Virus record (IMG/VR): IMGVR_UViG_3300013138_000003
Location: 1 to 39,943 of that record
Length of the DNA stretch: 39,943 bases
Reading direction: 5' to 3' (one strand)
From: a virus
Below, piece by piece: positions 3,530-29,258 of the stretch (its first letter is position 1; the number at the start of each line of letters is the position of its first letter). The notes under the pieces were generated by a model. The model made no database searches and was not told the DNA's origin. It saw only the letters and a list, made by a program, of their open reading frames with translations. Made by a program: the position numbers and the translations under genes.

Positions 3530-3570
3530 ACATCCCTCCTTTTTTGAGATGGTTAATAAATGCTGCTCCC

Positions 3571-3687
3571 CTTAAAAAAGAGAGGCCGATCCCGCCGTGC
3601 ACGGAATCGGCCCCCAAGTTGTACGTCTCTATTATCACCCCACCAGCGGGGAAAAAGCAAGAACTATTCCCACAGGATTCACCGAAG
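3571..3687 (-). promoter_or_regulatory. late promoter and leader element, copy A (tail operon)
   Basis: This 117-bp element recurs at 25565..25680. Read on the minus strand it contains a conserved upstream block GAATCCTGTGGGAATA, then TTGCTT (3655..3660), 18 bases, GATAAT (3631..3636), then GACGTACAACTTGGG and a hairpin with a U-tract. The 18-base spacer differs strongly between copies while its length and both hexamers are kept, which is what a promoter under selection looks like. It stands in front of the tail tube gene. The upstream block may be an activator or operator site. Confidence 0.8.
3584..3612 (-). terminator. leader hairpin with U-tract, copy A
   Basis: On the minus strand GGCCGATTCC pairs with GGGATCGGCC across a short loop and is followed by TCTCTTTTTT, the form of an intrinsic terminator. 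It lies only about 12 bases after the predicted transcription start of the tail operon and before the first gene. It must either be read through with help from an antiterminator, or act as a 5' stabilising structure. Confidence 0.65.
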
Positions 3688-3849
3688 ATTACGTCTATCT
3701 GTTTTTCGCAAGTATTTATCAAAATATTCTCGGTTGTATTCTACTGCTCGCTCATGTTGACATCGCGGGTGTCCACAGGTTTTTATATATATCGGCCTAA
3801 TCTGGCAGTATGGGCACAATTTCTGTTTTACGTTTCTGCTAATAATCAC
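3679..3849 (-). CDS. small zinc-ribbon protein, unusual start
   Basis: An open frame of 56 codons reads ...NVKQKLCPYCQIRPIYIK and TCGHPRCQHERAVEYNREY, with CxxC and CxxxxxC pairs that could bind zinc. No ATG is available. A perfect Shine-Dalgarno AAAGGAGGTGAT runs into the frame, so the start is either the GTG at 3849 inside it or, with better spacing, an ATT at 3843. It is the last gene of the early operon, and its stop lies within the first bases of promoter element A. Function unknown. Confidence 0.65.
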   Translation of the reverse strand: MIISRNVKQKLCPYCQIRPIYIKTCGHPRCQHERAVEYNREYFDKYLRKTDRRNLR

Positions 3850-9678: not shown

Positions 9679-9758
9679 ATTTCACCATCCTTTTCCTGCA
9701 TACAAAATTACACTCTTTCCACCTGTTCCAATAGTAAGAATTTAATAATCGTCGAAGT

Positions 9759-9884
9759 TTAAGAAGGTCTTTGTTTGGCTTCATAACACTCCTTGCAAAA
9801 CCGTTCCCCTTCCTCTATCAAACACCTGCACTGTTCACATCTCGGTTCTCTCTTAGGCGGGTTGGGGTATTGGTTGTCAATCAT
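9759..9884 (-). CDS. tiny zinc-ribbon protein, 41 aa
   Basis: Reads MIDNQYPNPPKREPRCEQCR then CLIEEGERFCKECYEAKQRPS: two CxxC pairs separated by about 12 residues, a minimal zinc ribbon. The start overlaps the stop of the upstream gene. The MIDNQ beginning recurs at 10346. Function unknown. Confidence 0.6.
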   Translation of the reverse strand: MIDNQYPNPPKREPRCEQCRCLIEEGERFCKECYEAKQRPS

Positions 9885-10047
9885 CTAAAACCTCAATCAG
9901 TTTAGAATAACATTCTCTGCATAAATGCATTTTATATATAATTTCACGGTATTCTCCCTTAACTACTCTTGTCTTTGGCGGGCTAATAATCAGCCCGCCT
10001 GGTCGTTCAAGGCTTACCTTACATTTATAACATTTCACTTCTATCAT
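9877..10047 (-). CDS. small zinc-ribbon protein, 56 aa
   Basis: Reads MIEVKCYKCKVSLERPGGLI ... YKMHLCRECYSKLIEVLDD. CxxC at the N-terminus and CxxC near the C-terminus bracket a basic middle part. The ribosome site is AAAGAGGTGA. Preceded by one of three copies of an AGCGCAGAG(G/A)AGAAA motif. Function unknown. Confidence 0.62.
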   Translation of the reverse strand: MIEVKCYKCKVSLERPGGLIISPPKTRVVKGEYREIIYKMHLCRECYSKLIEVLDD

Positions 10048-10085
10048 TTTTCACCTCTTTTTCTTCTCTGCGCTAATATGATAAG

Positions 10086-10346
10086 TCAATCTAAGATTCC
10101 ACAACATCTTGGCACTACATTTTCTCCATTAAGCAATCGTTTTATTTGGAGTGGGTGATAACAAACCAAATTGCAATTTTCCCTACTATTTCCATTTTCA
10201 TCAATCTCAACAACTTTTATAACATTTCTTACTTCAAGTTCTCCAACATCATGGGCAGAATAACATCCTTGTAAACTTACTAAATCCTTAACTTTCATTC
10301 CTTTCCTCTCTTTCTCCTCTGCGCTGAGGTGTTGGTTATCAATCAT
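10086..10346 (-). CDS. hypothetical protein, 70-86 aa
   Basis: Two starts are possible. ATG 10346 overlaps the upstream stop as ATGA and gives MIDNQHLSAEEKERKG plus the main body. ATG 10298 (MKVKDLVSLQGCYSAHDVGE) has a strong AGAGGAAAGGA site. The body is beta-rich and ends YHPLQIKRLLNGENVVPRCC. It resembles the short KOW/SH3-like phage proteins that start KVKDLV, but that is tentative. Confidence 0.62.
   Translation of the reverse strand: MIDNQHLSAEEKERKGMKVKDLVSLQGCYSAHDVGELEVRNVIKVVEIDENGNSRENCNLVCYHPLQIKRLLNGENVVPRCCGILD
10311..10328 (-). repeat. short direct repeat with ribosome-site core, copy 1
   Basis: An 18-base sequence (plus strand TTTCTCCTCTGCGCTGAG) is repeated exactly at 10534..10551, with a degenerate copy at about 10054..10074. 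On the coding strand it contains GAGGAGAAA and lies just before a gene start each time. Confidence 0.7.
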
Positions 10347-10516
10347 AACTTATCCTCTTTAATCAATCCCCATTCACAAAACTCAATCTTTTTTATAGTA
10401 CCATCAGGATAGTATTCAATACTTTTTATCAATGGGCATTTGGCGGAATGGAAACCCCCACACCAATGACAACAACGAAATGTTGGTGTGCTTCTTGGAG
10501 CATTAGGGGTACTCAT
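10343..10516 (-). CDS. small zinc-finger protein, 57 aa
   Basis: Reads MSTPNAPRSTPTFRCCHWCG then GFHSAKCPLIKSIEYYPDGT and ends with CEWGLIKEDKL. The CCHWCG...H..KC pattern resembles a CCHC zinc knuckle. The stop overlaps the next start as ATGA. Function unknown. Confidence 0.65.
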   Translation of the reverse strand: MSTPNAPRSTPTFRCCHWCGGFHSAKCPLIKSIEYYPDGTIKKIEFCEWGLIKEDKL

Positions 10517-25556: not shown

Positions 25557-25564
25557 GCAACCTC

Positions 25565-25680
25565 CTTAAAAAAGAGAGGCCGATCCCGCCGTGCACGGAA
25601 TCGGCCCCAAGTTGTACGTCTTTATTATCGCACTACGTCTGAGAAAAAAGCAAGAATTATTCCCACAGGATTCGCTGAAG
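25565..25680 (-). promoter_or_regulatory. late promoter and leader element, copy B (head operon)
   Basis: Second copy of the element at 3571..3687. On the minus strand: GAATCCTGTGGGAATA, TTGCTT (25648..25653), 18 bases, GATAAT (25624..25629), then GACGTACAACTTGGG and the hairpin. Only the 18-base spacer and about eight scattered positions differ. It drives portal and the head genes and lies just after the terminator that ends the small-gene unit. Confidence 0.8.
25578..25606 (-). terminator. leader hairpin with U-tract, copy B
   Basis: Identical stem-loop to 3584..3612 (GGCCGATTCC / GGGATCGGCC) followed by TCTCTTTTTT on the minus strand, located between the predicted transcription start and the portal ribosome site. 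Terminator-like; may be controlled by antitermination. Confidence 0.65.
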
Positions 25681-25692
25681 GGTGATATTAAC

Positions 25693-25720
25693 AAAAAACC
25701 CCGCTTTTTAGGGCGGGGCT
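25693..25720 (-). terminator. strong intrinsic terminator
   Basis: On the minus strand GCCCCGC-CCTAAAAA-GCGGGG followed by TTTTTTG. It closes the small-gene unit that starts at the promoter near 26603 and insulates it from the head operon. The plus-strand reading also ends in TTTT. Confidence 0.82.
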
Positions 25721-25739
25721 TTTGGGGACAAATAGATGG

Positions 25740-25910
25740 TTATTTACAAAATACAAACGTTATATTGTCCTCAAAGATGTATTTATACCCTATTCGTTTG
25801 CCGTTTCGGCTGAACCATCCTTCCCAATCGCTTTCCAACTGTAGCCATTTGTGTATTCTTTCGACATTTCTTTCTGTCCAATGCATTTTTATTTTTCTGT
25901 ACGGTTTCAC
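25740..25910 (-). CDS. small hypothetical protein, 56 aa
   Basis: Start GTG 25910 (MKPYRKIKMHWTERNVERIH) behind AAAGGAGG; the longer frame overlaps the upstream gene without reason. It continues KWLQLESDWEGWFSRNGKRI and ends EDNITFVFCK. Basic N-terminal helix followed by a beta hairpin. It is the last gene of a three-gene unit with its own promoter and terminator. Function unknown; an anti-defence role is a guess from context. Confidence 0.68.
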   Translation of the reverse strand: MKPYRKIKMHWTERNVERIHKWLQLESDWEGWFSRNGKRIGYKYIFEDNITFVFCK

Positions 25911-25924
25911 TTGAACCTCCTTTG

Positions 25925-26278
25925 TTATTCTATGTTTTTCTTGCACCCGTCGCAGTGCCATCCGCCTTTCTTCTTTTTTCTGATCCGCCCGAAACAGCCG
26001 CACTCAGGGCACTGACCTGATTGCCCGATTGCCTCATCGAGCAGCTTTTTGATTTTTCCCACGTCACCAGCCTCAACGAGTTTAGCAATCTCTGTTTCCC
26101 ACTCGCCTGCTCTCGGGTCCCGTAGGCAATATGCGATGTCCTCCGCAATAGCTGCGCGGGTTGCGGTCTCGGAAAACCCCTCGATGATGTTTCCGGCGCC
26201 TACCCGCCACAACCGGCGAGTGGCTTGGTATAGCTCGTCATTAAGTTCCAGTTTTTTTAGGATTTTTTCTGTGGTCAT
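25925..26278 (-). CDS. zinc-ribbon hypothetical protein, 117 aa
   Basis: Start MTTEKILKKLELNDELYQAT at 26278 behind AAAGGAGAAAAA. A longer frame to 26338 would translate a CRISPR-repeat-like sequence (FQSTRPRGE) and is rejected. Residues 1-85 are helical; the C-terminus CPECGCFGRIRKKKKGGWHC DGCKK is a four-cysteine zinc ribbon with a basic loop that could bind nucleic acid. Middle gene of the small unit. Function unknown. Confidence 0.72.
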   Translation of the reverse strand: MTTEKILKKLELNDELYQATRRLWRVGAGNIIEGFSETATRAAIAEDIAYCLRDPRAGEWETEIAKLVEAGDVGKIKKLLDEAIGQSGQCPECGCFGRIRKKKKGGWHCDGCKKNIE

Positions 26279-26292
26279 TTTTTCTCCTTTTT

Positions 26293-26321
26293 GTTCCCCA
26301 CGTGGGCGCGTGGATTGAAAC
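26293..26321 (+). CRISPR. solitary CRISPR-repeat-like unit (type I-C-like 3' end)
   Basis: The plus strand reads GTTCCCCACGTGGGCGCGTG then GATTGAAAC. The last 18 bases, GGGCGCGTGGATTGAAAC, are, from memory, identical to the 3' end of type I-C repeats such as that of Pseudomonas aeruginosa, including the invariant GTGGATTGAAAC handle. The 5' half keeps a CCCACGTGGG palindrome where the I-C hairpin lies, but is degenerate. No array and no cas gene are present. It lies in the 53-bp gap between two small genes, just upstream of a ribosome site. Confidence 0.72.
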
Positions 26322-26331
26322 AAATAAACAA

Positions 26332-26535
26332 TTACCACTGATAATTTTTCAAGGTCGCTCCAGGTCGGGACAAGTGAGCGTCTATTGCACGGGTCATTCC
26401 CCGCATCTCCGACAACTCGTGTCCCCTCGTCAGGCGGTACTCTGCGATATGATCTCCGGTCGCCCGCTCACTGATGACCATCGTCTCGTATTCTTCTCCA
26501 ACTCTCCGTGCTTTTCTGATTTTGTATTCTTTCAT
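26332..26535 (-). CDS. small hypothetical protein, 67 aa
   Basis: MKEYKIRKARRVGEEYETMV then ISERATGDHIAEYRLTRGHE, ending PGATLKNYQW. Highly charged, with a beta-then-helix pattern. AAGGAGGAAAAA precedes the ATG. First gene of the small unit behind the promoter at 26603..26630. No family recognised. Confidence 0.7.
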   Translation of the reverse strand: MKEYKIRKARRVGEEYETMVISERATGDHIAEYRLTRGHELSEMRGMTRAIDAHLSRPGATLKNYQW

Positions 26536-26602
26536 TTTTTCCTCCTTTTTTCCCCTGCCCTCCGGGGATCGAGTGATGATGTATTATCTATCATCTACCT
26601 AT

Positions 26603-26630
26603 ACTATACCATATCTGCCGTTTTTGTCAA
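26603..26630 (-). promoter_or_regulatory. strong sigma70-type promoter of the small-gene unit
   Basis: Minus-strand TTGACA (26625..26630), 16 bases, TATAGT (26603..26608). The leader of about 60 bases contains GATGAT...ATCATC (around 26576..26596) and CCCC...GGGG hairpins before AAGGAGG. This is the best consensus promoter on the minus strand of this region. Confidence 0.75.
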
Positions 26631-26835
26631 GTCTTTTTTTTGATTATTGCGGTAGAGTTATACTCCTGTTTTTGTATGTCAATTTATAATTAGTTATAAC
26701 AAATATGGCTAAGTTGACAAAAAGTCAATGAAATCAAGGGGTATCATAATATGCCTTACTCGATAATCGCTCGTTGTAGGGCGTTTGGTGCGGGTTTAGA
26801 GGCGGTTTTTTCTAAAAATTTTTCTTAGAATTGCG
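26631..26835. other. non-coding gap with palindrome
   Basis: About 200 AT-rich bases between the small-gene promoter and the end of the large terminase gene. It contains the palindrome TTGAC-AAAAA-GTCAA (26714..26728), which could be a repressor site, and a weak AT hairpin TCTAA...TTAGA near 26810..26829 followed by A/T runs that may end the terminase transcript. No gene seen. Confidence 0.5.
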
Positions 26836-28497
26836 CTATTTGATGGTTATCGGGTCGTTCAAAAAATCATCGAGGTTTCCCTCATCATCCGCGTTCTGCC
26901 CGATCAGAATCCCGTTTGCCATCAAGAGTGCCGTCATGTCATCTATCTTATCCGCACTCTTTTTCTTATCCGGAGCCATGTTCATATTGGCGTCGGTTCT
27001 TGCCACGATGTTCGAGGCGCACCAGGTCAGAACCGGATCGCCGCCATGCCGGAACTTTCCCGCATAATATGTCTCCTCGAAATTCTTCATCGAGGGATGG
27101 TATGACTTCGGCCCCTGGATGAACTGGGTCATCTCTATCCCTTCGTTTGTCAATTTTTGCGCTATCTGCGCGGCGTTCCATTGGTCGTAAGCAACGGAAG
27201 CAAGGTTAAAATTCTCTTTGACCCATATCACCTTTTTAAAAATCTCGTCATAGTCGGTCACTTCTCCCTGTGTTTCGAGCATGAAACCTGCTCTGACCCA
27301 ACCGGCATACGGCACAAGGTTACGCTCTATCCTTCTCTGGACTGTCGTTTGCGGAACCCAACGCCATCCGTGCGTGTACAACAAACCATTTTTCTTCCAA
27401 ACAAGCCGGAATGAAGCCAAGTCGCGAGTGCTTGCAAGATCAAGAGCGCCATAGCACGGCTCTTGTTTTAATTCATCAAGCGGGACTTCACCGGCGCAAG
27501 CCTTCCATTTCTGCAAATCGATCCAACCGTGTGCCGTCGAACTCTGCCGGTTCATGCGCTTGATCAAAAACTCCGCATGACGGCCAGGCATTGACTTTGC
27601 TTCTGTCGCATCTTTTTTAATCGCGTCATACAAAAGCCGGTTCGTTTCTATCAGGGGGTTTGCTTTGATCCATATTTTTTCGTCAAACTCTTTGTCTTTG
27701 TCGTCGATAGAATATATCAACGCGAAAAAATGATCCGCGTCAACTACTCCTTCAAGCACCTGTTGGGCGAATTTCCGCATCTCAGGCCATGGCCCGGGAG
27801 TTTCATACCCTTCAGTCGTCGTATATAAAAATAAAGGGTTGCGTCTTGCTCCTGCCGCCGATTGTAACACGTTCATCAAATCGTGGGTCTTGTGAGCGTG
27901 TATCTCGTCGATTATTATGCAGGACGGATTAAGCCCATCCTGTGTTGATGCTTTCGCGTTTATCGGACGAAACATCCCGCCGTTTGAATAACACGCGATC
28001 GAACGGGTGAACGGTTCGACTTTAAAAGCATCGCAGAGATCGGGGGTCTTCATCGCCATGCGCCGAGCTATCCCAAAAACTATTGCCGCTTGGTCTCCGG
28101 TAGTTGCGGCGCTGATCACTTGCGGGCCATTTTCTTTCTCCATCGTTAGGCAATACAAACCGATACCGGCGGCGATTGTCGATTTTGCATTTTTGCGGGC
28201 AACGGTAAACAAGGCCGAGGTGAAACGCCTTGATCCATCCGGATTACGAAAACCGAATAAATTACAGAGGAAGAAAATCTGAAAGGGTTCCAACTGAATA
28301 AGCTTAGTCGACCATTTTCCCTCGACGTGCGGGAGCGCGGAGATAAAGTCGCAGATTTTGTTTGCTTCAGTTTCTGAATAGGAAAAATTCCCCGGACTTT
28401 TCAGGTCGTTTAAAAATCTGTCGCAAGCGAGAGTCGCCCACTTACCGAGTGCCGTCTTTTCCTTCGCATACTTTACTGCTATCTGAGTCCACGTCAT
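26836..28497 (-). CDS. terminase large subunit
   Basis: 553 residues of the Terminase_1 / HK97-like family. ATPase: Walker A-like VARKNAKST at 99-107, Walker B CIIIDEIHAH at 193-202, coupling motif LYTTTEG near 229. Nuclease: GALDLASTRDLASFRL and the C-terminal KSADKIDDMTALLMANG supply the acidic residues. It cuts concatemers and pumps DNA into the head. Overlaps the DUF5131 gene by 4 bases. Confidence 0.96.
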   Translation of the reverse strand: MTWTQIAVKYAKEKTALGKWATLACDRFLNDLKSPGNFSYSETEANKICDFISALPHVEGKWSTKLIQLEPFQIFFLCNLFGFRNPDGSRRFTSALFTVARKNAKSTIAAGIGLYCLTMEKENGPQVISAATTGDQAAIVFGIARRMAMKTPDLCDAFKVEPFTRSIACYSNGGMFRPINAKASTQDGLNPSCIIIDEIHAHKTHDLMNVLQSAAGARRNPLFLYTTTEGYETPGPWPEMRKFAQQVLEGVVDADHFFALIYSIDDKDKEFDEKIWIKANPLIETNRLLYDAIKKDATEAKSMPGRHAEFLIKRMNRQSSTAHGWIDLQKWKACAGEVPLDELKQEPCYGALDLASTRDLASFRLVWKKNGLLYTHGWRWVPQTTVQRRIERNLVPYAGWVRAGFMLETQGEVTDYDEIFKKVIWVKENFNLASVAYDQWNAAQIAQKLTNEGIEMTQFIQGPKSYHPSMKNFEETYYAGKFRHGGDPVLTWCASNIVARTDANMNMAPDKKKSADKIDDMTALLMANGILIGQNADDEGNLDDFLNDPITIK

Positions 28498-29258
28498 GAT
28501 TGAGGTTTTATCGTTGGGTATAACCTGATAGTTTTTCCATCAAGCATCGTCCCCATTTCCGTCCATATTGCCGACGACTGTTTGAAGAAAAAAGGGATTT
28601 TCGCTGCATCACACTTCTTTTGCATTTCTCGCGCCCAGTTTATGTCGTGATCGCGATATCCGGGCCCGGATTCGCCCCCGTATATGATCCAGTCAATACC
28701 AGAGATATTAAGATCGTTAAGCGACCCCAAAGCCGGTTCATAGCTTATAAATCTTATGGTGGCGGGAATCTTTCGGAGTTCGTCTGCGCGATAGGCATAC
28801 TTCATATTCTCGATGCTGACGCCGAGCCAGATATTTTTATAACCTTCCCCCCAATCACAGGGGAGATACTTCCTTATGTTTTCAGGACGCTTCGTAAGCA
28901 ACTGATAGATGAGATTCGGATATTTTCGGATCATCTGCCACATGCGGGAACGGTAAGCATTCAACTGTGGATGGTCTTCCGCCCAATCCATGAGCGACCC
29001 GATAAACACGAGCCGCGGATTACCGGAACCCATCACCCCGGGGATACCCTTGACCGTTGAAACAGACTCAATTCGTATCTTTGCCTCAACACTTTTTACT
29101 TCTTGTCTTTTGGATCCAACTCCCCATAACGCAAGTCCCATCCTATTCTTTGTGAGTTTTTCGGCATAACAATTCATGCATCCTTCGCTGACCTTGGAAC
29201 ACCCCATCCAAAAATTCGCCGTTGAATCCGTCCATGCTATAATGGTCGCTTTTTCCAT
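28494..29258 (-). CDS. DUF5131 (phage Gp37/Gp68) family protein
   Basis: 254 residues. The N-terminus IIAWTDSTANFWMGCSKVSE GCMNCYAE is the family signature with three Cys (20, 27, 30) in a CX6CX2C arrangement reminiscent of radical-SAM iron-sulfur sites. FIGSLMDWAEDHPQLNAYRS, LTKRPENIRKYLP, WLGVSIENMKY and IIYGGESGPGYRD follow in standard order. Common in phages, but its reaction is not established. It sits between terminase and a methyltransferase-like gene. Confidence 0.9.
   Translation of the reverse strand: MEKATIIAWTDSTANFWMGCSKVSEGCMNCYAEKLTKNRMGLALWGVGSKRQEVKSVEAKIRIESVSTVKGIPGVMGSGNPRLVFIGSLMDWAEDHPQLNAYRSRMWQMIRKYPNLIYQLLTKRPENIRKYLPCDWGEGYKNIWLGVSIENMKYAYRADELRKIPATIRFISYEPALGSLNDLNISGIDWIIYGGESGPGYRDHDINWAREMQKKCDAAKIPFFFKQSSAIWTEMGTMLDGKTIRLYPTIKPQS

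Follow-up and report, generated by a model that had tools for sequence, protein, structure and literature searches.

The DNA analysed here, referred to below over its whole length of 39,943 nucleotides as the window, carries an accessory operon inserted between the genes for its terminase and its portal protein. This terminase-portal interval (25557-26835, 1279 bp) holds two minus-strand ORFan genes, P0002 (26332-26535; 67 amino acids), which is the first of the operon, and P0001 (25925-26278; 117 amino acids), whose product has a zinc-ribbon-like C-terminal end (CxxC..CxxC; a weak match to Zn_ribbon_IS1595 lies below the cut-off). They are followed by a probable third gene on the same strand (25740-25910; 56 amino acids, GTG start), which has a AAAGGAGG ribosome-binding site and matches no family. 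A predicted minus-strand promoter with 11 of 12 consensus positions (TTGACA-16-TATAGT with an extended TG; 26603-26630), found in a scan whose total number of sites was no higher than in shuffled sequence, reads into P0002 and on across the intergenic gap that follows it. A terminator-like hairpin (25698-25714, minus strand) comes out of a sequence scan after the operon, and another lies just before the portal gene (25576-25608, minus strand), where a very similar hairpin is found in two relatives, L014 and L015. The stretch before the portal gene (25576-25680) resembles a second intergenic stretch of the window near tail genes (3544-3700), both having a GGCCGATTCCGTGCACGGCGGGATCGGCC hairpin, and the gene immediately upstream of that for the terminase large subunit encodes a DUF5131 (phage Gp37/Gp68-like) protein (28494-29258).

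For both P0001 and P0002, searches of Pfam, PHROGs, NCBIfam and PADLOC gave no family that passed its cut-off, and no relative turned up among 50,697 phage records and 384 Omnitrophota genomes, so that on these searches an identity as known Acr or defence proteins was rejected. The single viral match (L003) spans 20 residues inside another gene and looks spurious. An AlphaFold model of P0001 made without an alignment had a pLDDT of 57 and was left out of any fold search.

Tailed-phage relatives of the window have the same gene order, with 68-86% protein identity in the terminase and 54-88% in the portal. Because the length of the interval varies among them (752 bp in L015, 461 bp in L014, and 68-192 bp in the others), it is best seen as a recurrent insertion site and the operon as an accessory insert. 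The window's whole insert is absent from this interval in close relatives; L015 has a reversed methyltransferase-like gene there (9690-10437) and L014 a shortened version of that same insert (361-820). Among phages with distantly related terminase and portal genes, an I-C array (L095, 9219-9440) lies near the packaging genes, as do a one-spacer mini-array (L115, 12637-12721) and a solitary repeat (L134, 60-91).

Within the operon, the 53 bp that separate P0001 from P0002 (26279-26331) contain a solitary, 5'-truncated type I-C CRISPR repeat, CCCCACGTGGGCGCGTGGATTGAAAC (26296-26321), which is in crRNA sense on the plus strand and on that strand has the ATTGAAAC end. It is identical (26/26) to the last 26 nt of GTCGCGCCCCACGTGGGCGCGTGGATTGAAAC, a repeat unit which comes from a degenerate array of I-C type on an IMG/VR contig (L002). 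Over the full length of this unit identity is 28/32, with all differences within the first six bases, and I-C arrays on plasmids of Nitratidesulfovibrio vulgaris match the window repeat at 26 of 28 positions. On a weight matrix built from 41 I-C repeats the element scores 36.1 bits, whereas the maximum in 50 shuffled windows was 5.4; it thus belongs to the I-C family beyond chance, and a chance origin of the match is ruled out. An earlier note, made from the letters of this DNA, had taken 18 of these bases, GGGCGCGTGGATTGAAAC (26304-26321), to equal the 3' end of type I-C repeats, had considered an accidental match very unlikely, and had proposed a comparison with known CRISPR repeats. The comparison supports both statements and lengthens the match, and the palindrome preceding the 18 bases and the gap between two small genes, both on the minus strand, are as that note described them.

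The absence of an array, claimed by the same note, is also confirmed. The 18-mer is the sole match in the window when up to three mismatches are allowed, and the weight matrix finds no second copy of the repeat on either strand. GTCGCTCC at 26354, 32 nt downstream, was ruled out as a second, degenerate unit (p 0.25 in shuffles), and in gapped alignment the flanks resemble the repeat only weakly (p 0.03 to 0.4 in four tests, uncorrected). The claim that cas genes are missing holds for the proteins scanned, a part of those in the window, among which none was recognised. No known RNA family exceeds its threshold in 25600-27000. In terms of what SRUfinder asks of a solitary repeat unit (SRU; PMC10651486), the element is intergenic and has no further repeat, whole or partial, in the surrounding 100 bp. 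Its match to a known repeat falls short of the 90% identity across 90% of the length that is the lower limit there; against 44 collected repeats, 26 of 32 nt (81%) align exactly and 28 of 32 (87.5%) overall.

The 5' end of the repeat is lost at a sharp boundary. Identity drops abruptly from 26/26 to 2/6 where TTTGTT (26290-26295, plus strand), which is leader sequence of the next gene, replaces the GTCGCG of the missing 5' arm. The 5' half that had been called degenerate is more accurately described as lacking its first six nucleotides. The leader and ribosome-binding site of P0001 (GGGGAACAAAAAGGAGAAAAA; 26279-26299, minus strand) shares its GGGG with the repeat, as the plus-strand CCCC at which repeat identity starts. 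The leaders of the two genes are alike (GGGGAACAAAAAGGAGAAAAA-ATG for P0001 and GGGGAAAAAAGGAGGAAAAA-ATG for P0002), and their motif, GGGGAA(0-4)AAGG, occurs only twice in the window with both strands counted, once before each gene. The simplest reading of this one genome is that the repeat was truncated through a junction at the 4-nt microhomology, which would have removed its outer 5' part.

In type I-C, processing by Cas5d leaves the crRNA with 11 nt of repeat as its 5' handle and 21 nt as a 3' hairpin (PMC5965380), and the enzyme is reported to require no more than a stem of 3 bp capped by a tetraloop (PMC7064716). For the window repeat, the canonical 21-nt hairpin has a predicted energy of -4.5 to -4.6 kcal/mol, compared with a median of -13.7 kcal/mol for viral solitary I-C repeats, of which 1 in 55 has a weaker hairpin. 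Four of its seven stem pairs are Watson-Crick. All seven are present in 33 of the 55 viral repeats and six in another 15, in a comparison where the 3' stem arm was fixed by the 18-mer search and the 5' arm was free; thus, the stem is usually retained in viral solitary I-C repeats, and the window copy is an outlier. When G-U pairs are allowed, six of the seven canonical positions can pair, and at least six pairs were reached by 480 of 4000 random 20-mers. The full 32-mer is predicted to favour an alternative fold (-8.7 kcal/mol) in which GUGG before the handle is paired.

Both the operon and its one strong promoter run antisense to the repeat. In the sense direction a scan with a sigma-70 consensus, which may miss promoters of Omnitrophota or of the phage, predicts no promoter, the best plus-strand site (8/12) being equal to background. 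For comparison, the 18-mer is present in 65 IMG/VR stretches. With arrays left out, these hold 54 solitary-repeat clusters besides the window, 26 in sense, 14 antisense and 14 mixed with respect to the coding strand that a simple ORF caller assigned to their surroundings; the counts are approximate and include at least one near-array (L145, with a degenerate second unit 64 bp away). Ordinary phage genes alone are common to the window and the 65 contigs, with no shared SRU operon, and array spacers from other contigs of the set have no meaningful match to the window or the fetched loci. Some viral contigs have more than one solitary I-C repeat, up to three, with genes filling the 0.6-2 kb from one repeat to the next: L091 (372, 969; its contig also includes L089), L114 (1040, 1618), L125 (6802, 8676) and the contig of L112 (14127, 14922). 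The 32-mers are identical in L091/L089, in L114 and in L125, as if the repeats bordered gene cassettes.

The closest genome matches of the terminase profile are in Candidatus Omnitrophota assemblies (L015, 79%; L017, 76%; L016, 68%), in which a binning error is possible for short contigs, and we infer that the phage infects a member of this phylum. Type I-C immunity exists in Omnitrophota: Cas8c (TIGR01863) is found in 16 of 384 genomes, 15 of them above the cut-off, and GGCGCGTGGATTGAAAC with at most one mismatch occurs in 33 of 384, mostly in arrays, against 2 for a reversed control pattern. Consequently, the search for I-C systems in candidate hosts that had been suggested earlier succeeds at the level of the phylum, but the repeat motif is absent from all three genomes with the nearest phage relatives. 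Isolated full or near-full I-C repeats outside I-C arrays are seen in Omnitrophota genomes as well (L053, L058, L059, L060, L068, L071); the one in L058 has an antirepressor-like and a RelBE-like gene nearby, and that of L060 is beside a different, I-E-like array.

The explanation that we prefer, at about even confidence, is that the window contains a captured, 5'-truncated I-C repeat that is what remains of a solitary repeat or a Racr and has ceased to serve as a sense RNA decoy for Cas5c/Cas7c. In this model, the terminase-portal accessory operon would have gained an I-C repeat in a single capture, either out of an array or from a solitary repeat that was still intact. Recombination would have joined it to the ribosome-binding leader of P0001 at the shared GGGG/CCCC, at the cost of the hairpin's outer 5' arm. 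Any transcription of the repeat would then come mainly from the operon mRNA, which carries its reverse complement, and loss of the sense-decoy function would follow; judged from strand and predicted fold, such a loss is the most likely outcome. Counting against a vestige, the 26 retained bases have not decayed, which fits a recent capture and also selection. In addition, the stem can form six of seven pairs with G-U, and Cas5d is reported to need only the short stem mentioned above.

The earlier note had put the element forward as a candidate Racr. Part of this stands, since the solitary repeat within the accessory operon is truly of type I-C and the phylum to which the host would belong has I-C systems, but an active sense Racr does not emerge from the analysis; such activity is possible, not favoured, and in our estimate unlikely. 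It would require that a plus-strand transcript be made from an unrecognised promoter and that the 3' half of the repeat with its weak hairpin titrate Cascade via Cas5c. In its favour, the solitary repeat adjoins accessory genes, a Racr for type I-C, RacrIC1, is experimentally known (PMC10651486), cas8c and a near-identical repeat 3' end occur in the Omnitrophota genomes counted above, and G-U pairing restores most of the stem. It is not favoured because the operon is read from the other strand, the promoter predictions include none in sense and the stem is weak (-4.6 against the viral median of -13.7 kcal/mol), being outcompeted by the alternative fold. Furthermore, the suggestion that the element may keep only the handle bound by Cas proteins argues against a mechanism like that of RacrIF1, where inhibition was lost once the stem-loop was disrupted and was not produced by the 5' handle on its own (PMC10651486). 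Since the RacrIF1 evidence is from type I-F, and since the reported minimum for Cas5d is a 3-bp stem, weak sense activity is possible.

A slightly less probable proposal is that the repeat works as an antisense anti-CRISPR or sensor. The operon mRNA, with 26 nt perfectly complementary to the repeat portion of host I-C crRNAs, would tie up pre-crRNA and mature handles, or a host crRNA would bind the P0001 leader. The strong promoter and the operon are on the strand that this proposal requires, and 14 of the 54 viral clusters are likewise antisense to local genes. Antisense action of the operon mRNA on I-C crRNA is physically plausible, because the predicted duplex with an intact repeat reaches -57 kcal/mol versus -32 kcal/mol for the two RNAs folded apart. 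However, any array-derived piece in the same orientation gives the same duplex numbers, and intact antisense copies elsewhere retain a stem that pure antisense pairing would not need. In addition, the host is inferred, the three nearest genomes lack the repeat, and a small, partial literature search found no published case of antisense-type solitary repeats. It is very doubtful that the phage inhibits or senses I-C systems by an antisense leader RNA and that the antisense-oriented repeats of other phages form a second class beside sense Racrs. Finally, a role at the DNA level, as a target for homology or integration (recombination with host arrays, a decoy for Cas1-Cas2-Cas4, or a cassette boundary), would suit a repeat at the junction of two ORFan genes with a duplicated leader and the gene-sized spacing of the multiple copies in L091, L114 and L125, but it is improbable for a genome with one truncated copy and no second boundary copy at the insert edges.

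The usual interpretation of solitary repeats in viruses is that they are RNA decoys. Among the viral I-C repeats compared here, orientation and the integrity of the stem vary, and these two properties can separate likely decoys from remnants such as the one we favour for the window. The antisense clusters, about a quarter of the total, can be explained by the sense-decoy model only if they have separate promoters; if they instead pair with crRNA, they would represent a new way of blocking CRISPR.

Compared with known systems, the window locus resembles viral SRUs and Racrs, including RacrIC1 (Camara-Wilpert et al. 2023, PMC10651486), in being a single intergenic repeat in a phage accessory locus, with no array and no cas genes recognised. 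However, RacrIC1 is located downstream of acrIC5 and co-transcribed with it in sense (PMC10651486), whereas the window repeat lacks its 5' 6 nt, has nearly lost the hairpin and is on the strand opposite to the operon. In sequence it belongs to the GTCGC-N-GCGTGGATTGAAAC family of the I-C arrays of Omnitrophota and others, from which it differs in consisting of one truncated unit with neither spacers nor a leader. Viral CRISPR mini-arrays have a second repeat, and intact mini-arrays and arrays are present in other phages of the comparison set (L115, L095); the window has no second repeat and therefore no defined spacer. What it shares with the mini-arrays is a repeat of host type carried by a virus.
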